Shown piece after piece: positions 37,133 through 52,942 of a stretch of 57,317 nucleotides of DNA (the stretch's first letter is position 1; every line of letters starts with the position of its first letter). Source of the stretch: Deltaproteobacteria bacterium (GTDB lineage Bacteria; Myxococcota; JACPTQ01); contig JACPTQ010000075.1 in the NCBI GenBank assembly GCA_016192705.1, positions 1 through 57,317 on the forward strand, read 5' to 3'. Under the pieces are notes generated by a model, which saw only the letters and a list, made by a program, of their open reading frames with translations, made no database searches and was not told the DNA's origin. The position numbers and the translations under genes were made by a program.

Positions 37133-38290
37133 CTATCGCAACACCCGATAAATAAAACACTTCAAGTAGTCGGTCTCTGTCAGCATCGGATGCACCGGGT
37201 GATCGCGCGAGGCGCCGCGCCGTTCGACGAGTTGAACCTCGCGATGCGCGCCCAAAATCGCGTCACGGACAACTTCGGCAAAACCGTGCGCCGAGAGAGA
37301 ACCCGAGCACGAGCACGTCACGACGAGTCCACCCGGTTGCACGATGCGGAACGCACGCAAATTGATCTCTCGGTACGCGCGCAACGCCGCATCGATTCCC
37401 GCGTGGCGTTTCGCAAGTCCCGGTGGGTCAAGGACGACGACGTCAAATCGATCACCGTTGCGTTCATAGGCACGCAGGCGATCGAACGCATTGGCGGTCT
37501 CTACCTTTACGTTTCTAAAACCATTGAGGACGACATTTCGCGCGGCCGCCTCGGCGTTTTCGCGACGCTCATCCAAAGCTAAAACCGTTCTTGCGCGCGC
37601 TGCGGCGTGGAGCGCGAATCCACCGTGGTAAGTGAACGCGTCGAGAACATCTCCAAACGCCAATTCGCCGACGCGCAGGTGGTTCTCACGTTGATCAAGA
37701 AACGCGCCCGTCTTCGCGTCGGTCAATACATTCGTCGAAAACCGAACCGCGCCCTCGGAAAAAACCGCCTCGCCCGACGATTCGCCGAATACGACGCGAC
37801 GCTCGCGCGGCAAACCCTCAAAGTCGCGTCCCGAGCCGTCGTTTCTGAGGACGACACGCGTCGGGTCAAATACGCGCCGAACCACGTCGAGCAAATCGCC
37901 GATTCGCCGGTCCCAAATCAGCGTCAGGGCTTGCACAACCACGGTATCCGCAAACCGATCGATGAAAAGACCCGGGATCCCGTCGGCCTCGCCCGAAACC
38001 ACGCGATACGCGTCGGCTCCAGGAAACAGGCGCGCACGCCACGCGGCGCATTCGCGCACGCGCGCCTCCAACTGCGCGAGACTCCACGGCGCGTCGCCCC
38101 GCATGAGAACGCGGAGCGCGATCCGTTCGCCAGCGGCCACAGCAGCCGTTGCCACGACGCGGCCGTCGACGCGGGTGAGCTCTACCGTGTCAGCGGTGCG
38201 GTCGATTTCATCCGCAACGTGCTCACGCTTCACCCACGGATTCCCAGCGGCGACACGCCGAAACCCCGACGCTGTGAGGCGAACTTTCAC
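37133..38290 (-). CDS. rlmI: 23S rRNA methyltransferase RlmI-like (class I SAM-dependent)
   Basis: 385 residues. An N-terminal PUA domain, EEHE-like central block (GAFLDQRENHLRVG), SAM-binding VLDAFTYHGGFALHA, VVVLDPPGLAK and CSCSGSLS are the signatures of RlmI (m5C1962 of 23S rRNA) and its paralogue group; the C-terminus ends PMLTETDYLKCFIYRVL as in the family. GTG 38290 overlaps the bioF stop (GTGA). Exact target base is inferred from family resemblance. Confidence 0.9.
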   Translation of the reverse strand: MKVRLTASGFRRVAAGNPWVKREHVADEIDRTADTVELTRVDGRVVATAAVAAGERIALRVLMRGDAPWSLAQLEARVRECAAWRARLFPGADAYRVVSGEADGIPGLFIDRFADTVVVQALTLIWDRRIGDLLDVVRRVFDPTRVVLRNDGSGRDFEGLPRERRVVFGESSGEAVFSEGAVRFSTNVLTDAKTGAFLDQRENHLRVGELAFGDVLDAFTYHGGFALHAAARARTVLALDERRENAEAAARNVVLNGFRNVKVETANAFDRLRAYERNGDRFDVVVLDPPGLAKRHAGIDAALRAYREINLRAFRIVQPGGLVVTCSCSGSLSAHGFAEVVRDAILGAHREVQLVERRGASRDHPVHPMLTETDYLKCFIYRVLR

Positions 38291-39462
38291 AGCGACGGCG
38301 GGACAACGTCTTTGATCTCGCGGGCCAGCCGAACGATGTCTTCTTCACGGTGCAGCGCCGACATCGTGATTCTCAAGCGGGCCGTGCCATCAGGAACAGT
38401 CGGCGGCCGAATCGCTTGAACAAAAAACCCGCGATCCAACAATTTCGCGGCGACGCCGAGCGCTGTCGCCGAGTCCCCGACGATACGCGGAAAAATCGCG
38501 CTCCACTCATTGCCGCCCACGGAATCACGCGAATTCAAAAGCGACGAGAAACGGCGCGCATTCTCTTTGAGTGCCGCCCTCGCGGCCTCGGCTCGTCGCA
38601 CCGCTCGCACCGCCGTCCAGAGCGCCCGAACCCGCATGGGCGAAGGCGCGGTCGTAAACACGTACGTTCTCGCCTTGTTCACGAGCCACGAACAAAGCTG
38701 CGCCGTGCCCGTAACAAACGCCCCTTCACAACCAAGCGCCTTCCCAGCGGGCGTCATCGTTGCGGAGACGCGGCTTTCAAGACCACGCGCACGTACGAGC
38801 CCGGCCCCATCCGGCCCGACAATTCCGGCCGCATGCGCCTCATCGACGTACGTCATCGCGCCGAATCGCTCGGCGATGTCGACCCACTCCTCGAGGGGCG
38901 CAACATCCCCCTCCATGCTGAACACCGACTCCGTCACAACGAGCTTTCGCCGAAACGCCCCCCCCTTCGTCAGCGCGTTCGCGAGGGCCGCCGAATCGCG
39001 ATGTCGCACGGTGTGAACTTCCGCGCGCGACAACCGACATCCATCGATCAAACTCGCGTGGTTAAGCTCGTCCGCGTAAATCGCATCACCGCGCCCCACA
39101 AGCGCCGGAATCGCTCCAATATTTGCAAGCGTTCCGCTGCCAAACAAAACAGCCGCCGCACTCCCTTTCCATTCCGCGACTTCACGCTCAAGCGCCACAT
39201 GCGCCGCGCTCGTCCCCGTAATCAGTCGCGACCCCGTCGACCCTGCGCCAATCCCAGCGTCGCACCCCTCATCGCTGTTCTCATCTGTCGCGGGGGCCCC
39301 GCGCGCCATTCCCAGGTAGTCGTTCGAACAAAAGACAACGGCATCGCGGCCATCGACGATCGCGCGCATTCCGTCGCGCCACGCAACGACCCTTTCGCGC
39401 CGAATCAAATCGCTCTTGTCGAGCTCGGCAAACGCGTCGTTCAGCCACACAAGCGATTTCAT
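38287..39462 (-). CDS. bioF: 8-amino-7-oxononanoate synthase-like (alpha-oxoamine synthase)
   Basis: 391 residues, PLP enzyme joining alanine and pimeloyl thioester in biotin synthesis. CSNDYLGMA, GAGSTGSRLITGT, DELNHASLIDG, TESVFSMEGDVAPLEE, YVDEAHAAGIVGPDGAG and the PLP-lysine loop TPAGKALGCEGAFV are all present, as is the usual length. Other biotin genes are not nearby; KBL or other oxoamine synthases share these motifs, so the substrate is not certain. Its ATG overlaps the phosphatase stop and its stop overlaps rlmI, making a tight unit. Confidence 0.88.
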   Translation of the reverse strand: MKSLVWLNDAFAELDKSDLIRRERVVAWRDGMRAIVDGRDAVVFCSNDYLGMARGAPATDENSDEGCDAGIGAGSTGSRLITGTSAAHVALEREVAEWKGSAAAVLFGSGTLANIGAIPALVGRGDAIYADELNHASLIDGCRLSRAEVHTVRHRDSAALANALTKGGAFRRKLVVTESVFSMEGDVAPLEEWVDIAERFGAMTYVDEAHAAGIVGPDGAGLVRARGLESRVSATMTPAGKALGCEGAFVTGTAQLCSWLVNKARTYVFTTAPSPMRVRALWTAVRAVRRAEAARAALKENARRFSSLLNSRDSVGGNEWSAIFPRIVGDSATALGVAAKLLDRGFFVQAIRPPTVPDGTARLRITMSALHREEDIVRLAREIKDVVPPSL

Positions 39463-40151
39463 GCCGCGATCTCCGATAGCGAATCCACGACCCCCATCGC
39501 ACCCGCCCCCATGAGCTCATCACGTGTCGAGTACCCGTACGAAACCCCCACGAAGCGCACGCCCGCCGCTATCGCCGTCTGCACGTCGACGACGCTGTCG
39601 CCCACAAACAGCGCTCGATCCGCCGCAACCTGACATCGCGCGAGAATTTCGTTGAGTCCCGCGGGATGCGGCTTTCGCGTTGCCAGCGAATCGCCGCCAA
39701 TGACCGTCTCCGCTCGCGCACCAACGCCCAGCCCATCGAGCAAATGCCGTGACATCGCCTCGGGCTTATTCGTCAACACGGCGAACCGAACGCGCGCCAG
39801 AAAAGACGCGACGCCGTCGTAGAGCTTCGTCGCATCGAGCAAGTGCAGGGCGTAGTGCGCGCGGAACTTCCCGACCCGTTCCCGCAACCGCACAGCTTCA
39901 ACATCTCGCAGGTCAGGTTCAGCCTTCGCGACCGCGAGGTCCCACGCGGCATCTCCGTCGCCGACGCCAAACACCCGCGTCATGAGCGTCGCGACCCCCT
40001 CCCCAACGCAGCGCCACACATCGGCCGTCGACATAGGGGCACGCCCTTCACCCGCTAGAACAAAATTCACCGATTGCGCAATGTCGTCGCGTGTATCGGC
40101 GATCGTGCCGTCAAGGTCGACAACAAAAAGATCTATGTTTGAAACGCGCAC
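39459..40151 (-). CDS. HAD-family hydrolase, phosphoglycolate phosphatase-like
   Basis: 230 residues. HAD motifs I (FVVDLDGTIADT), II (VLTNKP), III (RKPHP) and IV (FVGDSVVDVQTAIAAG) are intact with a helical cap between I and II, as in Gph, which hydrolyses 2-phosphoglycolate. Substrate within the subfamily cannot be assigned. GTG 40151 is the start chosen; no strong Shine-Dalgarno is visible. It lies 39 bases after the small secreted protein gene of the motility block and overlaps bioF by 4 bases (ATGA). Confidence 0.88.
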   Translation of the reverse strand: MRVSNIDLFVVDLDGTIADTRDDIAQSVNFVLAGEGRAPMSTADVWRCVGEGVATLMTRVFGVGDGDAAWDLAVAKAEPDLRDVEAVRLRERVGKFRAHYALHLLDATKLYDGVASFLARVRFAVLTNKPEAMSRHLLDGLGVGARAETVIGGDSLATRKPHPAGLNEILARCQVAADRALFVGDSVVDVQTAIAAGVRFVGVSYGYSTRDELMGAGAMGVVDSLSEIAA

Positions 40152-40190: not shown

Positions 40191-40466
40191 CTACTTGAGC
40201 GCCGTTGTCCTCGCCGACCGCAACATCGCCGGGAGAAAACTCTTCTTGAGCTTGAGCAGCCGCGCGAACCGCACCTTATCCCGCCCCTTAAACATTGCGA
40301 CGTTCGGCTTCTTGTAATCGCCGTCAATGAGCATGTCATCGAAGTTGTAGTGCTGCTCCTTGACCTTTCCTGTTGCCTTCGTCCCTTCGCTTTTCTCTTG
40401 CGCCAACGCCGCAGAGCCCCCTCCGAGCAAACCGACCATGAACAACGCCGCCAAAAGCCTTTTCAT
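40191..40466 (-). CDS. Small secreted protein at the end of the gliding-type block
   Basis: 91 residues. Clear signal peptide (MKRLLAALFMVGLLGGGSAALAQ, cut after ALA is likely; no lipobox). The mature part is short and charged: YNFDDMLIDGDYKKPNVAM and RFARLLKLKKSFLPAMLRS are its most conserved-looking parts. ATG 40466 has GAGG 8 bases upstream; an extension to 40487 lacks support. It follows the GltE-like gene by 36 bases. In Myxococcus a small protein, GltF, follows GltE; I propose only a positional analogy, since I cannot recall its sequence well enough to claim homology. Confidence 0.8.
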   Translation of the reverse strand: MKRLLAALFMVGLLGGGSAALAQEKSEGTKATGKVKEQHYNFDDMLIDGDYKKPNVAMFKGRDKVRFARLLKLKKSFLPAMLRSARTTALK

Positions 40467-40502
40467 CGTTCGCCTCCCAATAACCATAGAACCTTACTCC
40501 AC

Positions 40503-41789
40503 TTAACCGACGCGATCAATCGACGGGGCCGCGCCCTTAACTGGCGCGCCGTCTTTCGCCTTCCCCTCGCCATTCTTCGAGTCCGGTTTCTTTGTGTCGC
40601 GCCCCTTCTTATCGTCACCGTCCGTTGACGTCGTCTTTTCCTTTTTCTGTCCGCCCTCAATCTGCCGCTTGAGCACGCGGATGTTCTGCAGCACCGGGTC
40701 CTTCGCGTCGATTCCCGACCCAGCCAAATCGACATAAACCTGGTAATACTTGAGCGCTTTTTCCGGCAACCTCAGGAACACCTGGTAGACATGCCCGAGC
40801 CGCTTCGCCACGGTTGCGTTTTTCGGGTCCGCCTCAAGAATCGCGAGATAAATCTTCTCGACCTCTGGAAACTTTTTCTGACCCCAGAGAGCCGCGCCGA
40901 GCCCCAAAAGCCCCTCCAAATTCTTCGGCTGCGTCGCGTTCACCTTCCGGTACTCCGCCTCGGCGCCCGCAAAATCGAGATATCGCAAGAAGACCGACGC
41001 GACGTTCAGCCGGGCCGCCATCAAGTCCGGCCGAATCTTGAGCGCTTCGTTGAAGTTGTGAACCGCCAAGTCGCGCTCCTTGCGCTCGAGAAAAACGAGC
41101 CCAAGGATATTCAGCGCCTCGGCATACCGCGGTCGCAGCGTGAGCGCCTTCCGAAGCGCTGTCACCGCAAGGTCGTACTTCTTCTGCGCGAAATAGACGA
41201 GCCCAATGTTCGCGTGCGGCGCCGCGAGCTTCGGACTCTTCTCGAGCACTTCGCGGTCGTACGCAATCGCCTTATCGAACTCGCCCTTCAGTCGATGCAC
41301 GACCGCCAAGTTGTGCTTGGCCGTCAAATCTTCCGCGTCGATCTCCGTCGCCTTCCGCAGACTCTCTTCGGCCTCGTTCAAACTCCCCGCCGCGAGCCGG
41401 AGCGCTCCAATGCTCGCGAGCGCCGCCGCCGATTTACCGTCAACATCGAGCGCCTTCTTGTACGCCGCCTCAGCCGCCGCCGCATCGCCCTTCAGCCACA
41501 GCGCGTATCCAAGCCCGAGGTGCACATCGACGTTTGCCCCGTCTTTGCCCACAAGCTCCTGGAACTTCGCAACCGCGCCTTCGACATCTGGCGGCGTTTT
41601 CTTAAGCAGCGCAAGCGCCGCCCCGACCGGACTTAACGCTTCGCCCGCAGCGTTGGCCGCTGCCTTCGGCTCCGCGACCGCCGTCTTCCCAGCCGCGCCT
41701 GCCCCCAAAGCCGCGCCCGCGACGAGGCACAGCCCCAAACCGACCGTCGCCACTCCAAACCGCCGAATCATTCTATCGATGCGTTTCAT
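40503..41789 (-). CDS. gltE: TPR protein, GltE (AglT)-like
   Basis: 428 residues: a signal sequence (VATVGLGLCLVAGAALGA), then about 8-9 TPR units from about 65 to 370 (for example AAALASIGALRLAAGSLNEAE, split into the A-helix and B-helix of one unit; APHANIGLVYFAQKKYDLAV; AEALNILGLVFLERKERDLAV). A Lys/Asp/Gly-rich C-terminal tail follows. In Myxococcus GltE/AglT is a TPR lipoprotein encoded next to GltD, as here. The lipobox here is poor (Leu before Cys), so it may be periplasmic rather than lipidated. Its ATG overlaps the GltD-like stop (ATGA). Confidence 0.72.
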   Translation of the reverse strand: MKRIDRMIRRFGVATVGLGLCLVAGAALGAGAAGKTAVAEPKAAANAAGEALSPVGAALALLKKTPPDVEGAVAKFQELVGKDGANVDVHLGLGYALWLKGDAAAAEAAYKKALDVDGKSAAALASIGALRLAAGSLNEAEESLRKATEIDAEDLTAKHNLAVVHRLKGEFDKAIAYDREVLEKSPKLAAPHANIGLVYFAQKKYDLAVTALRKALTLRPRYAEALNILGLVFLERKERDLAVHNFNEALKIRPDLMAARLNVASVFLRYLDFAGAEAEYRKVNATQPKNLEGLLGLGAALWGQKKFPEVEKIYLAILEADPKNATVAKRLGHVYQVFLRLPEKALKYYQVYVDLAGSGIDAKDPVLQNIRVLKRQIEGGQKKEKTTSTDGDDKKGRDTKKPDSKNGEGKAKDGAPVKGAAPSIDRVG

Positions 41790-44700
41790 TGTTCACCCGC
41801 CGTTTCATCCTGCCCCGACATAGACGTCTTCTTTTTCTTGAGCTCAGGAATCGCAACATCAACCGGTTCCGCGAAATGCTTCGCCGACACAACATCATCC
41901 GTCACGCGCGGATAATCGTCCGGACGCGCCTTCGCGAGTTTCGCCCCCGACGCTTCAACGCAACCGTTGTAAACCTTCGCCTGCACCGACAAGTTTAAGT
42001 TCTTCGCATGCGCCTCAAGCGCTTTCTCCTCGACCGGGAACGCCTTCTCCTGAAGCTTAATCTTGTAAACTTCGATCTCTTCTGGCGAAAGCCCCGGCGG
42101 TACTGGCGTCTCGAAGAGCGCCGTCGCAAAATCCTGATACGTATCGCCAATCTTCTGTAGTGCGCACGCGCTCCAGGCCGCCGACTTGTAGTTAAGCACG
42201 TCGAAGAATATCTCGGTAACCTTCTTGAGGAGCTTCCCCTTCTCGACGATGAGCCGCGTCAAAACCTTCTGCGGCAACTTGAACTTGATCGTGGCGTACT
42301 GCGCAAACAGCGCCCGACCCTCTTCGTACCGAGCCCGCGCCGCCCACGCCGTCGCCGGCGCCGACTTCCCACGCGCCGCCTCTGGCAACCGCTTGTACTT
42401 CGCCACCGCGCTCTTAAAGTGCCCCTCGGCCTCCCTCGCCTTGCCGCGCTTCTGCGCACCAAGCCCCAGCTTCAAATGCGCCTCAATCGCCCGCGCACTC
42501 GACCCCCACTTCGCGATGATCTGCTTCCAAACCTTCTCAGCCGCCGTGACATCCTTCGCCCTAAAGTGGATCACCGCGATCCGCGCCCAAACCTCGACCG
42601 CATCTTTCTGCCCGTACGTCTTGACGTACTTCTCAAAGCTCGCAACCGCGCCTTTCGTATCGCCAAGGATCTCCTTCATCACACCGGCGTTGAAAATCGA
42701 GTTTCCCGCCTCTTTGTCCCGCGGGTAATTCCCCATCTTCTCAAAGTATTGCGCCGCCAACTCGTAGTTCGCCGACTCGGTCGCGATATCCGCGATCGCG
42801 AAAATCGCCCGTGGCGCCGCTTCCTTCTTCGGGAACTCTTTCCAAACGCGGTCGTACGCGGCAATCGCCTTCTTCGGCTGTCGATGCGCGATGTACGTCT
42901 CGGCCGCCGCAACCAGCGCCTTGTCCGCAAAATCAGACCCCGGCTGCTCCTTCACGAGCCGCAAATACTCCGACGCTCCCTTTTCCCAATCGCCGCGATC
43001 GATCGCCGCGTACGCAACTTTGAAAATCGCCATCGCGACGAACCGATTCAACTCGTCTGGCTTCCGTCCCTTGAAGCGCTTATTCGCAAGCAGCTTTTTC
43101 GACCACTTCTCAATTTCAGGCCAATCCTCAAGCTGGTTGAAGCACTCGAGGATGTTGTTCGCCGAATGCCCCGCGAGCTCATGGTCGGGATGATTGTCGA
43201 CGATAAAGCTGTAGCGCCGAACAGCCTCGTCAAACAGCTTGTTTCGCATAAACATTTCCGCCGCGTTAAACGACACCGGAATCGCCTTCGTGCTCTTCGG
43301 CAAAAGCTTCGCGTACTCGTCCGACGCCTCAACGTACTTCGCCTCCCACTTCGAGAGCGGCATCCCCTTCAACTTCTGCGCCTTACCCATGGTCGAATAC
43401 TTCTTATGGAGGAACTCACGCTTGACGCCCTCTTCGACGCCGCCGAGCTTCCCAGCGCACAAAATCCGCCCGTAAGCCCCCTCCTCCTGGAACTTCGTTT
43501 CGCGCTTGTCGGCCACAACCGCCGCATACGTCTCCATTGCGGTTTCATATTGGTTCAGCTTGAAAAACTGGATTTCCGCTAAATAGAACCGCTTGTCGTA
43601 CGACTTTGCGTTGCCCAAAAACATCGCCAAATACAGCGCGTAATCCTTCGCGACCGCCTTAAACTTGTCGAGGTCGTTCGTCTTGATCGCTTCCTTGTGC
43701 AAATTCGTGATGATCGTGTCGAGATAATCCTCGGCCATCTTGACGGCCTTCGCGACCGCCTGCGGATTCGCCTCGTTCTTCTTCACCCACTCGCCCTCTG
43801 GCGCAAAGAGCGAAATAATCGCGCGCTGCGCCTTTTCGAGCCGACGCTTGTCGCCAATCCGCTTCAACGAGTCGACGATTTGGTCCAAATGATCTGGAAC
43901 AATCGGCGCCCACGGATCGAGCGAAATGAAGTAGCGATAAATCGCGATCGCCTTTTCGTCCTTGTCCTGCGACAAATAGTACTTCGCGAGCCGATCGAGC
44001 ATCTTCATCATGAGCGCGTGCCCACCCAGCCGCTTAAAGTAATCCCGCGTCTCCTCGAATCCGTTCGGCACCTCGGCGAGCGAGATAACGATGTCTTTCA
44101 TCGCCTGCTCACGGAATTCAATCTCCGACCGCGCCGTCTTCTGCTCTAGGTTTCCGATAACCTTTTTGAACGTGTCGGTCGACTTGCGATAATTCGACGC
44201 ATCCGAGCCGCCCAAATTGTAGAACGTCCACGCGAGCTTATAGAGCGCGAAGTTGTGAACCTTCTTGCCGGCCGCCATCGCCAAAATCTCTTCGTATTTT
44301 CTCTGCGCCGCGAAAAACAAGTCCTTCATAAAAAAGAACTCGGCGAGCGCAAGCTGCGCCTCCGCAACGTACGGGCTCTTCTTGAACTTCGTCACGACCT
44401 GCTGAAAGTACGGAACCGCCTCGGCCTCTTTTCCGGCCGCCCAAAGCCCGTCGCCCAACCGAAACACAACTTCGTCCAGCTTCTCGTAATCGGGAAACTC
44501 GCGCGTAATCTTCTTATAGAGAGTGAGCGACCGCCCGTAATCGGCCTTCGGCTCGGCCGGCTTCGCCGCTTTCAGATTGCCCTTCTTAAGCCACGCGTCC
44601 AGCTCGTCTTCGAAGGCGCGCCGTTTCAGGAAGTAAAAATACTTCGTCTCTTCCCAATAGAGCTCGGCCTGATTGAACAGGATGCGCGCCTTTTGCGGAT

Positions 44701-45001
44701 GGTCAGGGTTCTTATCGAGGATTCGCTTCAGCGCTTCGACCGCCTCGGCCCGCTTTTCCTGAACCGCCTTTTCCTTTTCTAAAATGAGCGGCTTGTTGCG
44801 CTCGAACGGGTCGTCGAGCTTCTGCTCGGGCCCCTTCGTCTTGACGGCCTTTTCGCGCTTTTTGAGGACGTCCTTCTTATCCTCAAACTTCGGAACCGAA
44901 GCGTCTTTCTTCTTCGCGGGCTGCGCGGCGTGCGCCGCAAACGACCCCGCGAGAACCGCGCTTGCCACGATGACGAATGACCACCGCTGATGCTTTCTCA
45001 T
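41786..45001 (-). CDS. gltD: Large periplasmic TPR protein, GltD (AgmU)-like
   Basis: 1071 residues. A Sec signal peptide (VIVASAVLAGSFAAHAA) is followed by a Lys-rich region (to about 110) and then TPR repeats over nearly the whole length (LFNQAELYWEETKYFYF, VVFRLGDGLWAAGKEAEAVPYF, AQLALAEFFFMKDLFFAAQRKY, ALYKLAWTFYNLGG). Length, composition and position before a GltE-like gene match AgmU/GltD, the periplasmic scaffold of the Myxococcus gliding machinery that links inner and outer membrane parts. GGGAGAGGG precedes ATG 45001. No catalytic domain is seen. Confidence 0.72.
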   Translation of the reverse strand: MRKHQRWSFVIVASAVLAGSFAAHAAQPAKKKDASVPKFEDKKDVLKKREKAVKTKGPEQKLDDPFERNKPLILEKEKAVQEKRAEAVEALKRILDKNPDHPQKARILFNQAELYWEETKYFYFLKRRAFEDELDAWLKKGNLKAAKPAEPKADYGRSLTLYKKITREFPDYEKLDEVVFRLGDGLWAAGKEAEAVPYFQQVVTKFKKSPYVAEAQLALAEFFFMKDLFFAAQRKYEEILAMAAGKKVHNFALYKLAWTFYNLGGSDASNYRKSTDTFKKVIGNLEQKTARSEIEFREQAMKDIVISLAEVPNGFEETRDYFKRLGGHALMMKMLDRLAKYYLSQDKDEKAIAIYRYFISLDPWAPIVPDHLDQIVDSLKRIGDKRRLEKAQRAIISLFAPEGEWVKKNEANPQAVAKAVKMAEDYLDTIITNLHKEAIKTNDLDKFKAVAKDYALYLAMFLGNAKSYDKRFYLAEIQFFKLNQYETAMETYAAVVADKRETKFQEEGAYGRILCAGKLGGVEEGVKREFLHKKYSTMGKAQKLKGMPLSKWEAKYVEASDEYAKLLPKSTKAIPVSFNAAEMFMRNKLFDEAVRRYSFIVDNHPDHELAGHSANNILECFNQLEDWPEIEKWSKKLLANKRFKGRKPDELNRFVAMAIFKVAYAAIDRGDWEKGASEYLRLVKEQPGSDFADKALVAAAETYIAHRQPKKAIAAYDRVWKEFPKKEAAPRAIFAIADIATESANYELAAQYFEKMGNYPRDKEAGNSIFNAGVMKEILGDTKGAVASFEKYVKTYGQKDAVEVWARIAVIHFRAKDVTAAEKVWKQIIAKWGSSARAIEAHLKLGLGAQKRGKAREAEGHFKSAVAKYKRLPEAARGKSAPATAWAARARYEEGRALFAQYATIKFKLPQKVLTRLIVEKGKLLKKVTEIFFDVLNYKSAAWSACALQKIGDTYQDFATALFETPVPPGLSPEEIEVYKIKLQEKAFPVEEKALEAHAKNLNLSVQAKVYNGCVEASGAKLAKARPDDYPRVTDDVVSAKHFAEPVDVAIPELKKKKTSMSGQDETAGEQ

Positions 45002-45027
45002 GCTGCCCTCTCCCTCATTTCAGTCAC

Positions 45028-47010
45028 TCACTCCGCCTTTTTACACGCATCCCGAAGCATGCTTCGGAACCACCCGACCTCGTCCTCCCAATATTCGCCG
45101 TCAAAATCCCAGTACATATGGCTGAGCTCGACCTTCACCTTCGCGACCTGGTCGATCGCCTTGCCGGTCTCTTTGCCGCCCGTCATGAGCGCCTTCGCGT
45201 CGGCGTCGAGTTCTTCCTTTTCCGCATTGATCGCGTCAAACGTCACTTCGTCCGCTTTCACGAGCAAATCGGCAAGCTCCGCGTCGGCCTCCTGCACCTT
45301 CTTTTGAATCATGAGCCCCGCGCTGTTCACCGTGCGGCGCCGCCGTTCGCGCGTTTCGTTCAAGACCTTCGCGCCAAAGGCCGTCGGCTTTTCCCCGGCC
45401 ACCCCAACAAGTGCCGCCACCTCGCGGTCGTACTCTTTCACCGCGTTGACGAGCCCAATGAACTCCTCATCGTCCAGCAAAAACTTATAAAGCTCGCTCG
45501 GCATTTCGCCGCGCCCGTCCGACGCCTCCATAAACCCTTGGAAAGCGTTTTCCGGCGACTGTTTCTTTCCGACATACGCCTTAAAGTTCTTCGCAAGCGC
45601 TTGGTTTCGCTTCGCAAACGCATCCGCAAGCTCGCGCGCCATCGTCACGCGACACTGATTCAAATAAACCGTCGCTTCCAAAATGTAGAGCTCGGGGAAA
45701 TACCGGTCCTTGAAGTACGGCGAATGGAGCGAGTGGAACATCCCAATCGCGCGGTCCGCATCGCCCATCGCGAAAAACACCCACGCCTTTTCGAACAGCG
45801 CGCGCGGCAGCTTCGTCGATTTCGAGTCGATCTGATCGTAGAAAAAGAGCGCGCGTTGGAACGCTTTCGAGTCGTCGCCGCCAACTTCGTAGGCAAGTCG
45901 CGCGAGCGCCAAGTAAGTGACGTCGAGAAGGAGCCGCGCGTCGGGGTCGATCGACGTGCGCGCCTCGACCGTTTTGACCGCGGCCGTGAAACGCTTCCCG
46001 GCCGTGAGGTAGCGCTTGTCGCGAACCGCGATGAGACCAAGGAAATACTGCGAATCGGCGTAATGCGTCGCTCCGACCGCGACCGACTCCAGGAATTTTT
46101 CAGCGCGCTTCAAGTTTCCCCATTTGTAATAAAACTTGCCGACAAAGTAGTTGTATTCGTCGCGCACGTCGGCCGGAACCTGCGCCACATCGAATCGCGT
46201 CAGCTTCTCGAAGAGGGGCGAAAAATAATCGACCGCCTTCGCCGCTTTATGCAGCCACCTAAGGGCGTCGCCAAAATTCTTATCCGACGGGCCACGCGCC
46301 GACACACTCAAGAGAGAGTCGATCGCGCCCTGGAAATACCCAGCCTTCGCGAGCGCGAGCCCCAAACGAAACTCGGCGTCCGCGGCCTCCGGCGACTTCG
46401 CGTCGGCGTTATTGACGATAAACTCGTGCAGCGACTCCGCCGCTTCCCAATACTTCCCGCCGTCAAGCGCCGCCTTCCCCTTCACGTACGGCAGGAGCCG
46501 CTCTTCCGCCCGCTTATCGGCCTCCGCGCGCTTCGCATCGGCCGCCTTCTTCTCCGCCTCAAGCCGCGCCGCCTCTTCCTCAGCCTTCTTCTTGTCGGCC
46601 GCCTCTTTTTCGCGCCGCGCCTTTTCCTCGGGCGTCAACTTCGCATCGGCCTCGCGCTTTTCCTGCTCTTCGAGGCGCTTTTGTCGCTCATCCTCGCGCC
46701 GATCGCGCTCAATCTCTTCCGCCGTCTTCTTAACCGGCGCCACCGCCACGAGCCCACCGCCCGTCGCCGCCATCGCGTCGATGAGCCGCTTCGACAACCC
46801 CTTCTTTCGAAGGGCCGCCGCATCCGTGGTCGTGAGCTTAAACTTCGACTTCGACGCCGTGATCGTCGTCATAATGACGTCGTCGGCAACCCCCGCCTTC
46901 GCCATCTTCACGACATCATCCACCGTCAGCGCCAGCGCGGCCGCGGCGCAAATCCATGTCCCGATTACAGCTACGAGCGCGAAACGCCCGATTCGCTTCA
47001 ACCCGCGCAT
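45028..47010 (-). CDS. gltC: Adventurous gliding motility protein GltC-like
   Basis: 660 residues. After a signal peptide (GRFALVAVIGTWICAAAALA), residues 32-80 form a small helical domain (LTVDDVVKMAKAGVADDVI). A long Glu/Lys/Ala coiled coil follows (about 95-170), then TPR-like repeats (about 180-480) and a C-terminal block ending MYWDFDGEYWEDEVGWFRSML. This layout and the YWEDE ending are what I associate with GltC, which binds the outer-membrane GltA/GltB barrels and CglB in Myxococcus. ATG 47010 is preferred to TTG 47016, which overlaps the barrel's stop (TTGA); AAGG is 7 bases upstream. Confidence 0.75.
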   Translation of the reverse strand: MRGLKRIGRFALVAVIGTWICAAAALALTVDDVVKMAKAGVADDVIMTTITASKSKFKLTTTDAAALRKKGLSKRLIDAMAATGGGLVAVAPVKKTAEEIERDRREDERQKRLEEQEKREADAKLTPEEKARREKEAADKKKAEEEAARLEAEKKAADAKRAEADKRAEERLLPYVKGKAALDGGKYWEAAESLHEFIVNNADAKSPEAADAEFRLGLALAKAGYFQGAIDSLLSVSARGPSDKNFGDALRWLHKAAKAVDYFSPLFEKLTRFDVAQVPADVRDEYNYFVGKFYYKWGNLKRAEKFLESVAVGATHYADSQYFLGLIAVRDKRYLTAGKRFTAAVKTVEARTSIDPDARLLLDVTYLALARLAYEVGGDDSKAFQRALFFYDQIDSKSTKLPRALFEKAWVFFAMGDADRAIGMFHSLHSPYFKDRYFPELYILEATVYLNQCRVTMARELADAFAKRNQALAKNFKAYVGKKQSPENAFQGFMEASDGRGEMPSELYKFLLDDEEFIGLVNAVKEYDREVAALVGVAGEKPTAFGAKVLNETRERRRRTVNSAGLMIQKKVQEADAELADLLVKADEVTFDAINAEKEELDADAKALMTGGKETGKAIDQVAKVKVELSHMYWDFDGEYWEDEVGWFRSMLRDACKKAE

Positions 47011-47012
47011 GA

Positions 47013-47789
47013 TCAACCTTCGCTCCCCTTCGTAAAGAAGCCGACGCCGAGCGACAGCAAGCTCGGGTTCGCGATGCCGTCCGTGTTCTTCGTGATGTAT
47101 TGCCGATACTCGAGTCGAAGCCCGAACCAGTTGTTCAAAAAGAACTTGAACCCAAGCCCGACGTTGCCGAGCGCGCGCAGCCCGCCCGTCGCGACCGTTG
47201 GCGCCTGCTCCGAAGCGCTGTAAACCGAAATCCCGCCGCCCGCGAGCATATAAAGGTCGAAGTGCGAGAGGTTCGTCTTAAGAATCGAGATCTTTCCGTG
47301 GATAAACGAAAAGACCGCCGACAAGTGCGCGACGGCCGAGAGCTTCTCGAGCTGAATGATGTTGAACGTTTGGTTCGTGCCCGCGACCGCGCTCTTGATG
47401 CCGTCCGAAAGGTTTGTGTTGAAACCCTTGAGCCAGGCGCCCGACAGCTCGAGTCCAAAGAACTCGCTCAAGTGGTACGTGAAGTGAGCGCCGAGCGCGA
47501 GGTAGTTGACGTACGCGTCGTTAGGAACCGCGCCACCAAACAAGTCGATTTCGAAGCGCCCCGGCTTCGCGAATTTTCGCTTTTGAATGACCGCGACTTT
47601 TCGCCGCTTGCCCCAATACGACTCGAGATCCTTGTCGAGCTGGCTCCTCAAATCTTCCTTCGTCTCACCGGCTGGAGATTTCGCGCCGCCCGTCCCGTCA
47701 GCCGATTGCCCCAAGGCAACCGCCGGCAATAGCGCCGGCACCAGAGCCAAGAGGCCCAACAAAACCCAGCTCATCCCTTTGCTTTTCAT
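47013..47789 (-). CDS. Outer-membrane beta-barrel, GltA/GltB (CglF/CglE)-like
   Basis: 258 residues with a signal peptide (MSWVLLGLLALVPALLPAVA). After a helical segment, VAVIQKRKFAKPGRFEIDLF begins a beta-rich region typical of the myxobacterial outer-membrane barrel family, with amphipathic strands (AHFTYHLSEFFGLELSGAW, VGLGFKFFLNNWFGLRLEYR) and a strand-like terminal LSLGVGFFT. Its place beside gltC parallels GltA/GltB in Myxococcus, but only one barrel is present here. ATG 47789 has AGGA upstream; an extension to 47870 is unsupported. The 77-base gap to the CglB-like gene has no gene. Confidence 0.75.
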   Translation of the reverse strand: MKSKGMSWVLLGLLALVPALLPAVALGQSADGTGGAKSPAGETKEDLRSQLDKDLESYWGKRRKVAVIQKRKFAKPGRFEIDLFGGAVPNDAYVNYLALGAHFTYHLSEFFGLELSGAWLKGFNTNLSDGIKSAVAGTNQTFNIIQLEKLSAVAHLSAVFSFIHGKISILKTNLSHFDLYMLAGGGISVYSASEQAPTVATGGLRALGNVGLGFKFFLNNWFGLRLEYRQYITKNTDGIANPSLLSLGVGFFTKGSEG

Positions 47790-47866
47790 TCGCTGATTCC
47801 TCGCCTTTTCTGCCCCATAGAAACCTGTAGAATACATTTGTCCACGTTTCCTGTCAATCGCGCACA

Positions 47867-49180
47867 TCACTTCGTCACCTGAACTTCAAACGGCATATAG
47901 CATCGCCCGTCGAGCGCATTCGAATCGCCCTTCAGGCGGCACTTGTTCCCGGTCACCGAGTTTGAGCACGCCGTGTCGGTTGTGCACGTCGTGTAATCCG
48001 ACATGTTCGCGGGCCGCACGAAAACACCGCCCGTCACAACATAGGTTCCCGCGGCAACGCCCGACGTGTCGGCCGTGAGCGAAAGTTTGTACCGCCCCTT
48101 CGTCAGCTCCGCGACCGCCGCCATCTTGAGCGACATGTCGGTCGCCGTGCCGCCATCCGCGTCGGCGACTTCAACGTACGTCGAAAAACCGTCGTTCGCC
48201 GCCGCGTTCAGCGAACAGGCCATCGCGCGCAGCGTCGTGCTGTCGAGGCTGTTCACCAAGTCGGTCGACGGAATCCAACTCATCATGCCGACGAAAATTG
48301 TCCCGATACCCGTCTGCTGCGTCGTCTTCTTGAGCGCGTCAACGGCGTTCTGCTGCGTCGTCGTCGCATCCGCCCCCGCGCCACCATCCGCGATTGCGCC
48401 GTTTCGCCCGTCGGTCACGAGCACCGTGACCGGCTGTGCGCTTCCTCCCCGCGCGCGCAAATCGGCCGCGGCCTGCGTGAGCGCGTAAAAGATCGGTGAC
48501 CCACCGCGGGCGCCCGTCGCGAGTTGCGACGACTGCGTTTGCAGCGTTGTCGAATCGTTCGTGAAACCGTTCGACAACTTGCTCCATCCAACGAGGAGAT
48601 TATTCTCGATAAACGGAAACGCCCCGAGCTCGACCGTCACGCTCTCCTGCAAAAACGTCGTCGACATGAGGCTGAGCTGTGCGTAACTCAAGCGCGAATT
48701 CGTCGGGTCGGTTTTCAATCCGCCGTCGACGCCGGGCGGATTCAAAAACTTATCGTCCGGCGTCAGCCCCGAAAAACTTCCGCCATGGTCAAACGCGATC
48801 ACGAGGTCGCGCGCTTGGCCCGCCGCACCGATGTCCTCGAACAGAAGCGCTGTCGCCGTCAGTCCAATCGGGGCCACACCCGCGTCGTTCAGATCTTTCG
48901 TGACGGTGTCCGCGATTTGAAGCGTCACCGAGCCCCCGGCCGTCGAGAGCCCCATCGGCAGCGATTGAAAATTCGGGTCGGTGTCTCGCATCACCTTCTG
49001 CTTCGAGTCAAGCATGAGGAAGATGAGGTCATGCGTCGTGCCGCATTTCTCCCAATTCACGAAAAGAGAACCGGCATACTGATTCGCGGTCTGCTGAATT
49101 CGCGCGTTCTGCTCACATGCGGCGGCGGCAACAAGCGCGAGTGCTCCCGCGGCAACAACTGGAACCCGAACTAAACCCAT
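47867..49180 (-). CDS. cglB: VWA-domain lipoprotein, CglB-like gliding adhesin
   Basis: 437 residues. The signal peptide ends ALVAAAAC (lipobox, Cys22). A VWA-type core follows: candidate metal-site strands RDLVIAFDHGGSFSG (D131, S135) or DLIFLMLDSK (D58), then ARGGSPIFYALTQAAADL (S228) and VTVLVTDGRNG (D257), then GIGTIFVGMM and a C-terminal domain with four of the seven Cys (399-427). In Myxococcus CglB is the outer-membrane VWA lipoprotein that binds the substrate at focal adhesions. ATG 49180 has GGAGG 10 bases upstream. First gene of the minus-strand block. The assignment rests on domain type, length and context. Confidence 0.72.
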   Translation of the reverse strand: MGLVRVPVVAAGALALVAAAACEQNARIQQTANQYAGSLFVNWEKCGTTHDLIFLMLDSKQKVMRDTDPNFQSLPMGLSTAGGSVTLQIADTVTKDLNDAGVAPIGLTATALLFEDIGAAGQARDLVIAFDHGGSFSGLTPDDKFLNPPGVDGGLKTDPTNSRLSYAQLSLMSTTFLQESVTVELGAFPFIENNLLVGWSKLSNGFTNDSTTLQTQSSQLATGARGGSPIFYALTQAAADLRARGGSAQPVTVLVTDGRNGAIADGGAGADATTTQQNAVDALKKTTQQTGIGTIFVGMMSWIPSTDLVNSLDSTTLRAMACSLNAAANDGFSTYVEVADADGGTATDMSLKMAAVAELTKGRYKLSLTADTSGVAAGTYVVTGGVFVRPANMSDYTTCTTDTACSNSVTGNKCRLKGDSNALDGRCYMPFEVQVTK

Positions 49181-49689: not shown

Positions 49690-51666
49690 ATGGCAACACG
49701 CAGCATGAGCCCGAGCAACCTTGTGATTGTCGGCGCCCTTTCGCTTCTCGTCGGAACCGCGTGCGAAAAGCCGCTTATCGGCCCGGCGCCTCGACTTGAG
49801 GCGAATCCGGCAGAAATCACCTTCGCGAGCGCGGGGGAATCGGGCGGTGAGACGGTCCTTTTCCTTAAGAACGCGGGAAGCGCGGACCTCGTGATCACGG
49901 GACTCGCGTGGTCAGGAACGTCGGGTGTTGAGGCAAAGTGGGTCGGCCGCGCGGCGCCGTCCGGGGACGACCCGCTCGTTCTCGAGCCTGGGATTCCATA
50001 CAACCTGCCGATTTCGTATCGTGTCGTCGCGGAGCAGGACCCGACGGGCACTTTCACGGTTTATTCAAATGACCCGGGGCCCATCAAGGCCGACGATCTG
50101 CACCGGCGCATCGGCGAGCTCGATGTTCCGGCGTTGTCGCTCCCAAACAACCCGGCCGTTCAAATCTTCACGGCCGATCGCAACGGCGAGACGATTGGCG
50201 ACGCGCGCCTCATCGCGGGCGATCGGATCGACTTCGGCGAAGTGCCGGCGAATCAATCGCGGTATGCGCGGGTAACAATTAAGAACGACGGCGTTCGACC
50301 CCTCGTGATTCAGTCGGTGTCGGTTGTAGCGAGTGAGCCGGCAACGGCATTCTCGATCAGCGGCACGGCGCCAGCGGCGAATTCGCGCGTGGTTCCATCG
50401 CGGAGCGCGGCCACGGGCGGCGCGCTTAACGAGATCACGTTTGACGTGAAGTACTTGTCGCCGTCGACGGCGCGTGCGAGCGGGAAGCTCGTCATCGTGT
50501 CGAACGACCCCGTGCGCCCGACGCACACGATCATCCTTGTGGGTGGCGCGATCACGTGCAATTTGGTTGCGACGCCGAGCCCGCTCGATTTCGGAGCGGT
50601 GGTGCGCGGGCAGAACGCCGAGCGCACGGTCACGCTCGAAAACCAGGGTGCGGCGAACTGCACGATCGACAGCATCGGGATGCAGCCGGGACAGAGCGCG
50701 GATTTGACGATCGTCCCGAATTCGACGTTCATCAACGGCGCCGCGCAGCCGGCCTCGTTTAACTTGGCGCCCGCGGGACGTGCGACATTTAAGGTTCGGT
50801 ACGACTCGCGCGACGACACGGCGGACGTCGGGCACGTCATCGTGAAACATCGCGAGCCACAGCGCGACCTCGATATTCGTGTCGTCGGCACGCCGATCAA
50901 CAACGCGCCGCCGGTTTGCGTTTGCCCAGCGAGCCCGATCGACACGGCACCGCTTCAGACGATTCAGCTCGACGGGTCGCGCTCGAACGACCCCGAGGGA
51001 CGAACGCCGCTGACGTGCCAGTGGACATCGCTGTCGCGTCCGAACGGGTCGACCGAGCCGATCGGCAACGCGAATACCGCGCGGGCGTCGTTCTTCGTCG
51101 ACCTCGCGGGCGACTACAAGTTCCAACTTCTCTGCAAGGACAACTACAACGCGGAATGCGCGCCGTGCACGGTCGATGTGCATGCGGTGCCGACCGACGA
51201 CCTCCACATCCAGCTTGTGTGGGATACGCCGACGGTCGACGTCGACCTCCACTTGCTGCGCGCGGGCGCGACGACGACGTGGTTTGGCGCCGACGACTGC
51301 TACTTCGGAAACCGAACGCCGCAGTGGTTTACGCCGAGCTCGGCCGACAACCCGCGGCTCGACATCGACGACACGGACGGCTACGGCCCCGAGAACATCA
51401 ACGTTCAGCGGCCAGCGGCAAGCCCCGCGAACCAGCCGTACAAAATCGGCATTCACTATTACTCGGATGACGGCATCGGCGCGACGCGCGCGACGGTGCG
51501 GGTCTACTGTTTTGGGACGCTCGCGGCTGAAAAGGGCCCGGTCTTTTTGCAGAAGACGAACAAGTGGTGGGACTTCGGGTCGATTGCGTGGCCGGGGTGC
51601 CAGCTGACGGTTAACGATCCGCCGCCCATCACCGACCGCTCGCCGTCAAATCCGCTCTTCCCGTAA
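49690..51666 (+). CDS. Multi-domain surface lipoprotein with choice-of-anchor D/Hydin-like repeats
   Basis: 658 residues. The signal peptide ends LLVGTAC (lipobox). Immunoglobulin-like Hydin/choice-of-anchor-D repeats follow: ANPAEITFASAGESGGETV, then IDFGEVPANQSRYARVTIKN and LDFGAVVRGQNAERTVTLEN. A PKD-like segment (CVCPASPIDTAPLQTIQLDG, about 415) comes next. The C-terminal 170 residues (LVWDTPTVDVDLHLLR, DDTDGYGPENINVQ, ATVRVYCFG) look like the YfaP/DUF2135-type domain. Several Cys are present. Function unknown; extracellular binding is likely from the domains. It is divergent from the CglB-like operon. Confidence 0.85.
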   Translation: MATRSMSPSNLVIVGALSLLVGTACEKPLIGPAPRLEANPAEITFASAGESGGETVLFLKNAGSADLVITGLAWSGTSGVEAKWVGRAAPSGDDPLVLEPGIPYNLPISYRVVAEQDPTGTFTVYSNDPGPIKADDLHRRIGELDVPALSLPNNPAVQIFTADRNGETIGDARLIAGDRIDFGEVPANQSRYARVTIKNDGVRPLVIQSVSVVASEPATAFSISGTAPAANSRVVPSRSAATGGALNEITFDVKYLSPSTARASGKLVIVSNDPVRPTHTIILVGGAITCNLVATPSPLDFGAVVRGQNAERTVTLENQGAANCTIDSIGMQPGQSADLTIVPNSTFINGAAQPASFNLAPAGRATFKVRYDSRDDTADVGHVIVKHREPQRDLDIRVVGTPINNAPPVCVCPASPIDTAPLQTIQLDGSRSNDPEGRTPLTCQWTSLSRPNGSTEPIGNANTARASFFVDLAGDYKFQLLCKDNYNAECAPCTVDVHAVPTDDLHIQLVWDTPTVDVDLHLLRAGATTTWFGADDCYFGNRTPQWFTPSSADNPRLDIDDTDGYGPENINVQRPAASPANQPYKIGIHYYSDDGIGATRATVRVYCFGTLAAEKGPVFLQKTNKWWDFGSIAWPGCQLTVNDPPPITDRSPSNPLFP

Positions 51667-51917: not shown

Positions 51918-52942
51918 ATGAAACGAAGCAGACGCCTCAGAGTCACGTGCAATAAGGTCGTGGCAGCCTTCGCGCTCTTTTTCCTTTTGTCGTAGAGACG
52001 GGTTGCGGCTCGACACCCGTTGACCCAACGCAGGGTGGCTCGCCAAGTGCTGCCGGAGGGAGCGCGCCTGGAAACCCCGCGCCCGGCAATACTATCGGCG
52101 ACCCAACGACGCCCAGCAGTCAGGCGCCCAACGACGACCCGCCTCCGAGCAGCTGCGACCTCGTCGCGACACCGAATCCGCTCGATTTGGAGGCGCTCGC
52201 GCGTGGACAGAACACCGAACGCACGGTCACGCTCAAGAACCAGGGACGATCGCCATGCAGCTGGGATCGAGCGCGGATCTGATGATCGTACCGAACTCGC
52301 TCGCTGTCGATGGCGTCGCGCAGCCCAACGGAGCCGATTGCCAACGCGAATACCGCGCGGGCGTCGTTTTTTGTCGACCTCGCGGGCGATTACAAGTTCC
52401 AACTCCTTTGCAAAGACAACGAGAACGCGGAGTGCGCGCCGTGCACGGTCGATGTGCATGCGGTGCCGACGGACGACCTCCACATCCAGCTCGTGTGGGA
52501 TACGCCGACGGTCGACGTCGACCTCCACTTGCTGCGCGCGGGCGCGACGTTGTCTTGGTTTAGCGCGGACGATTGCCACTTTCAAAATCGCACGCCCGAG
52601 TGGTTCACGCCGAGCCGGTACGATGACCCGCGGCTCGACATCGACGATACGGACGGCTACGGCCCCGAGAACATCAACGTTCAGCAGCCGACGGCGAGCC
52701 CCGCGGACCAGCCGTACAAGATTGGCGTTCACTACTATTCGAACGATTACATCGGCGCGACGCGCGCAACCGTGCGCGTCTACTGCATGGGGACGCTCGC
52801 GGCTGAAAAAGGCCCGGTCCTCCTCGAGAAGACGAACAAGTGGTGGGACTTTGGGTCGATCGCATGGCCCGGGTGCAACGTCACGGTCAACGATCCGCCG
52901 CCCATCACCGACCGCTCGCCGTCAAATTCGCTCTTCCCGTGA
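51918..52942 (+). pseudogene. Decayed duplicate of the upstream choice-of-anchor lipoprotein gene
   Basis: ATG 51918 (GGGAGGG upstream) begins a signal peptide that stops at TAG 51993. The lipobox and linker (VETGCGSTP) continue in another frame. Next comes a stretch equivalent to CDLVATPSPLDFGAVVRGQ of the parent, then a small deletion that shifts frame (MQLGSSADLMIVPNS). A larger deletion removes the parent's PKD region. An in-frame TGA lies at 52280. From about 52336 to 52942 the sequence is almost identical to 51060-51666 and is fully open (MASRSPTEPIANANTARASF from ATG 52310, 210 residues), so a remnant C-terminal domain could still be made without a signal peptide. Confidence 0.85.

Follow-up and report, generated by a model that had tools for sequence, protein, structure and literature searches.

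A VWA-headed Glt/Nfs-like operon without GltG or motor genes in cis, from an apparently undescribed clade of gene clusters in Myxococcota

The stretch of DNA analysed here (the window) is 57,317 nucleotides long and comes from a Deltaproteobacteria bacterium of the phylum Myxococcota (contig JACPTQ010000075.1). Six open reading frames lie tightly packed on its minus strand and read from 49180 to 40191, as the original prediction had placed them. The first (47867..49180) encodes a VWA lipoprotein of 437 aa, with an ATG at 49180 preceded by GGAGG and Cys22 as the mature cysteine. It is followed by an outer-membrane β-barrel of the GltA/GltB/NfsA/NfsB type (47013..47870, likely start at 47789), a GltC-like periplasmic TPR protein bearing an additional N-terminal domain of ~60 residues (45028..47016), a GltD/AgmU/NfsD-like TPR protein of 1071 aa (41786..45001), a GltE-like TPR protein of 428 aa (40503..41789) and a small secreted CglF/GltF-like protein of 98 aa (40191..40487). 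All six frames are intact and their third-position GC is coding-like. Because the intergenic gaps, from the VWA gene to the small secreted gene, are 77, 2, 26, −4 and 15 nt, co-transcription of the six genes is plausible from this spacing. Terminator-like sites at the operon showed no excess over shuffles in a sequence scan. Genes for a HAD phosphatase, a KBL/BioF-type aminotransferase and a SAM methyltransferase (37133..40151, minus strand) follow the small secreted gene in the same direction, with gaps of 39, −4 and −4 nt and no obvious break after the operon; the genes 3' of the cluster differ in relatives, and this trio is not conserved with the system.

Comparison with family models for gliding proteins gave matches for four of the products. 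The barrel scored 88.1 bits against TIGR04565 (OMP_myx_plus), passing the cut-off of 60, and a homologue of it occupies the same position in related operons. Matches below the equivalog cut-offs were obtained for the GltC-like protein (NF033756 gliding_GltC, 178.5 bits, E 2.5e-52, cut-off 450), for the GltE-like protein (NF033758 gliding_GltE, 92.6 bits, cut-off 225, a generic TPR model scoring slightly higher) and for the small secreted protein (NF033764 gliding_CglF, 39.4 bits, E 4.5e-10, cut-off 90). The GltE-like gene holds the same position in related operons, and the CglF-like gene is the conserved last gene of related clusters. In a Myxococcus-like control genome GltE and CglF pass these cut-offs, and NfsC and NfsE of the same genome also fall under them (210.6 and 120.6 bits). 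The GltD-like protein has TPR matches in Pfam, shares 26-33% identity with GltD paralogues across ~1000 aa and is matched in 56 of 58 genomes of the phylum; its identity was recovered by phylogeny. Taken together, family models and GltD trees bear out that five of the six proteins are of Glt type, as proposed, and what falls away from the proposed parts list is the naming of the VWA protein as CglB.

A scan of named genomes with the GltD alignment yielded 80 loci. In the GltD tree, which like the GltC tree is unrooted and has the window protein on a long branch, the window GltD was basal to 39 of the 80 loci (SH-aLRT 99), and the GltC tree returned the same grouping, the window GltC falling with 35 other rows (SH-aLRT 100). 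We define as the W clade the clade that holds the window GltD and GltC together with related VWA-headed clusters. In both trees it is separate from Glt, from Nfs and from the mglAB-linked type, and judged from these trees the window operon branches basally, with strong support, in a group of ~39 clusters found in Myxococcota MAGs. The suggestion that the complex is ancestral is not borne out, the trees being unrooted and the window GltD a long branch. The architecture of the clade is a VWA lipoprotein, one or two barrels, GltC, GltD, GltE and a CglF-like protein. A VWA lipoprotein comes first in 27/27 W-clade clusters with enough upstream sequence, against 3/33 in other clades, a count that depends partly on a profile trained on the W-clade heads themselves; head profiles trained on one subclade still picked out the heads of 17-22 further W-clade loci, with no match beyond the clade. 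A GltG/J-type match is absent from 23 of the 26 W-clade clusters with enough downstream sequence and present in 28/30 of other clades, and none of those 26 carries a motor gene. Among the three exceptions for GltG/J, the early-branching L148 and L167 have a gene for a GltJ-like protein immediately downstream; the match in the third, L165, proved false, the protein being an FHA/coiled-coil protein and not GltG. The extra N-terminal GltC domain occurs in 32/38 W-clade GltCs versus 5/37 others. In one W-clade subclade a second, large (~1000-1300 aa) VWA-containing protein and choice-of-anchor-D lipoproteins lie 3' of the CglF-like gene (L182, L184, L194, L201, L204, L208, L209, L211, L213 and L216).

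The VWA lipoprotein of the window has a signal peptide and lipobox (AAA before C22), an N-terminal β region, a VWA domain and a Cys-containing C-terminus. It gave no match in Pfam, none in a PDB search with its sequence alone and no relatives in a single-protein scan of the genome contigs; weak matches in three genomes (G043, G071 and G095) were discarded, that in G043 being an RND transporter. Against the head-lipoprotein profile of related clusters, by contrast with profiles of single subclades (hhalign probability 2-36%), it was matched over residues 104-264 with a probability of 89% (E 2e-6). The family alignment shows that the window protein keeps both the Cys of the lipid anchor and a second Cys, as well as the Asp of the MIDAS, the GGSP and VTDG motifs and the invariant C301 and G341. 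An AF2 model built with this alignment was of moderate quality (pLDDT 57.6, pTM 0.62; from the sequence alone pLDDT 33 and no usable model), and its best Foldseek matches in the PDB were mostly VWA domains, including that of the Plasmodium gliding adhesin TRAP. A PDB search with the head-family profile returned a CLCA1 VWA domain as sole match (E 0.014). On the profile comparison, the window protein is a divergent, long-branched member of the W-clade head family. Its VWA domain carries D110-H-G-G-S (mature numbering) as a partly degenerate MIDAS, together with GGSP and VTDGR; LDSKQ had been considered as the MIDAS and was rejected, since the family alignment puts the motif at FDHGGS. Since the first serine is missing from D-H-G-G-S, metal-dependent adhesion may be altered: the protein is VWA-like, and its metal binding may be poor or different. 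Non-canonical MIDAS motifs are also found in the early-branching heads L148, L167 and L179, with DxSGS in most later-branching members.

On the plus strand, divergent from the operon, lies a gene for a choice-of-anchor-D/HYDIN-like Ig repeat lipoprotein with a PKD domain by Pfam (49690..51666). Its homologue stands beside 14/27 W-clade clusters and beside 1/33 other Glt-type clusters, and the protein is probably an accessory surface protein of the system. A downstream ORF (52310-52942) appears to be an incomplete copy of this gene, taken from its C-terminal portion.

No GltG (GltG-tail search) and no motor gene (MotA/ExbB search) was matched on the window contig. The source genome (5.2 Mb, 96.65% complete) contains two further GltD clusters, both on contig C27. 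In cluster A (~32.5-45.2 kb) an AglR-like ExbB and two ExbD genes face a barrel-GltC-GltD-GltE-small-GltG set, whose GltG scores 126.7 bits with the GltG model. Cluster B (L023, ~83-95 kb) reads VWA(604 aa)-GltC-GltD-small-TPR and has no barrel; its VWA lipoprotein head is a different one with a canonical MIDAS, and HEAT, coiled-coil and LysM proteins come after the cluster. An orphan GltG of 453 aa (181.9 bits to NF033760) lies at C17:43266 (L118:1486-2847, L229:9252-10613) with no glt cluster within ~9 kb, a GltJ-like protein is encoded on C57, and a second ExbB-ExbD-ExbD set on C51. Therefore the view that GltG and the AglRQS motor are not visible is right for the window but, given the AglRQS-like genes and GltG on C27 and the orphan GltG on C17, wrong at genome level: the inner-membrane half and the motors are not missing from the organism. 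Near-identical ORF starts (GRSGLGSLRLAEVLGSD..., GRSGLGSLRLAKVLRSD...) were seen at L006:10446, L023:9590 and L230:16364, on C30, C27 and C57 of the same genome; their recurrence next to genes suggests a dispersed repeat element.

Gene content, membership in the clade and in the VWA family, and the placing of GltG and motor genes outside the operon and elsewhere in the genome are established by these results. We propose, with a probability of about 0.6, that the products of the operon make up the surface and periplasmic half of a Glt/Nfs-type envelope machine of a distinct VWA-headed clade, coupled to a motor in trans. By analogy with the Myxococcus machines, the barrel and GltC would together build a platform in the outer membrane on which the VWA lipoprotein is held and displayed at the cell surface. 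There it would bind a ligand, which may be substratum, prey or a neighbour cell, or a surface polymer, perhaps joined by the choice-of-anchor-D lipoprotein. Force would pass across the periplasm through GltD, GltE and the CglF-like protein, which would span it. As neither GltG nor a motor is encoded in cis, a proton-driven motor would be coupled in trans, by way of the orphan GltG on C17 or the GltG/AglRQS-like set on C27; the genes for the motor parts of the system probably lie at other loci of this genome. The most economical model is a motor in trans, as with Nfs, which borrows AglRQS in M. xanthus.

The absence of GltG in cis from nearly the whole W clade means that some members may run without a motor. 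A static adhesion or envelope-tethering complex, in which the VWA lipoprotein is displayed by the barrel and TPR scaffold and held to the cell wall with no motor driving the complex, would agree with the missing motor (26/26) and GltG/J (23/26) genes of the clade. However, GltD and GltE, the force-transmitting arms in Glt and Nfs, are fully kept, L148 and L167 have their GltJ-like gene, and the genome retains motors, an orphan GltG and a GltJ-like protein, so that we hold this explanation to be possible but rather unlikely. Somewhat less likely still is an Nfs-like surface-polymer machine, which would move or organise a secreted polysaccharide or coat bound by the VWA and choice-of-anchor-D lipoproteins. 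In M. xanthus extracellular polysaccharides interact with both Agl-Nfs and Agl-Glt (PMC3858216), and secreted lipoprotein neighbours are conserved in the present clusters; against this, no polysaccharide biosynthesis or export genes were recognised beside the window cluster or among the relatives listed.

The long branches of the window GltD and GltC, together with the replaced MIDAS serine, could also be those of a W-type machine that has lost GltG and is now a decaying relic. This is improbable, for none of the six frames is broken and all look coding by third-position GC, and a missing GltG is typical of the W clade. Least probable of all, and refuted at sequence level, is that the VWA protein is a true orthologue of CglB that has joined a set of glt genes. 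Its size is similar, a lipobox and VWA fold are present, the head-family profile aligns with CglB at an hhalign probability of 79%, and one of 28 head-family members matches the CglB model (E 2.8e-5). But the window protein itself was not significantly similar to true CglB (phmmer 0.38-0.39, hhalign probability 0.3%) and has DHGGS in place of the intact CglB-type DxSxS, and over the whole genome no protein reached the cut-off of 200 of the CglB model NF033757 (best 44.5), against 589 bits for CglB of the Myxococcus-like control. The identification as CglB in the original prediction is thus not upheld.

The W clade is a conserved and, it appears, so far undescribed branch of the Glt/Nfs machines known from Myxococcus; no account of a GltG-less type with a VWA head was found in the literature searched, which did not include Islam et al. 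2023 on CglB. What is new is this type and its conserved divergent choice-of-anchor-D neighbour, whereas single-operon Glt-like sets are already known from nfs and the core complex. We give about even odds that it is a conserved fifth type of Glt-like machine in Myxococcota, with its own VWA adhesin and choice-of-anchor-D lipoprotein, no dedicated GltG, and either driven in trans or motor-free. If so, VWA adhesins would be widely paired with the outer-membrane platform of Glt, and CglB in Myxococcus would be no special case. How this platform meets an adhesin, and which parts are modular, is central to myxobacterial gliding; the W-type cluster points to a Glt-type machine beyond the model genus, and a VWA gene in cis with barrel-GltC-GltD-GltE-CglF and no GltG would be a natural minimal module for tests of adhesin-platform interaction and motor sharing.

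The gathering of these parts in one unit is not exceptional. In M. xanthus nfsA-H forms a single cluster, as does the core complex in other phyla (PMC3169522), and operons of the order barrel-C-D-E-F-G were found throughout the phylum. GltD-type loci of M. xanthus are MXAN_1327, 1922, 3374 (nfsD) and 4870 (gltD) (PMC3169522), and we infer from gene order and anatomy that they correspond to the four full-length GltD loci of the Myxococcus-like genome (8,973,512 bp). There, L078 is the true Glt cluster (GltE 743.9 bits, CglF 137.9), L079 is Nfs (barrel-barrel-C-D-E-G), L077 adjoins genes that look like mglA and mglB, and the true CglB is encoded at L105 (3.60 Mb). None of the four GltDs falls in the W clade of the GltD tree, L080 being a long branch. 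Elsewhere, Glt-like clusters of a type A, corresponding to the Myxococcus G4 region, often have AglRQS-like genes in cis and/or adjoin mglB-/mglA-like genes (L062, L068, L082, L083, L088, L090, L133, L134 and others), which suggests that motor, polarity switch and Glt-like scaffold ancestrally formed one unit.

Work on M. xanthus has shown GltA, GltB and GltC to be joined in one outer-membrane/periplasmic unit (PMC4488436), Glt to recruit and retain the VWA adhesin CglB (PMC13104615), and AglRQS to power Glt and Nfs in turn by way of GltG/NfsG (PMC3858216). The window operon resembles Glt (GltA-K, AglRQS, CglB) in its barrel, its GltC-, GltD-, GltE- and CglF-like proteins and a VWA lipoprotein as candidate adhesin. 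It differs in being one operon with the VWA protein, not CglB, encoded in cis, in belonging to another GltD/GltC clade, in having neither GltG/H/I/J/K nor AglRQS in the cluster, and in missing all equivalog cut-offs. With Nfs it shares a single cluster of barrels, C, D and E without a motor of its own, AglRQS acting on Nfs in trans (PMC3858216); however, the Nfs locus of the Myxococcus-like genome (L079) carries NfsG in cis but lacks a VWA head. Nfs also belongs to a different clade, and neither an NfsD-clade GltD nor NfsG is found in the window cluster. The core complex aglRQS-gltCDEG of Gammaproteobacteria and Geobacter (PMC3169522) likewise clusters gltC, gltD and gltE, but it has the motor, GltG and an extra gene where the window has barrel, VWA and CglF-like genes; motor and GltG stand together in cluster A of C27 and not in the window. 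In VWA-headed operons of the Glt and Nfs clades (L070/L071, L089, L092), a VWA lipoprotein also lies directly upstream of barrel-C-D-E. There, however, GltG follows in cis, and the head comes from another family (CglD/Bd0875-MIDAS-like), to whose members the window protein gave no match in direct phmmer and hhalign comparisons.
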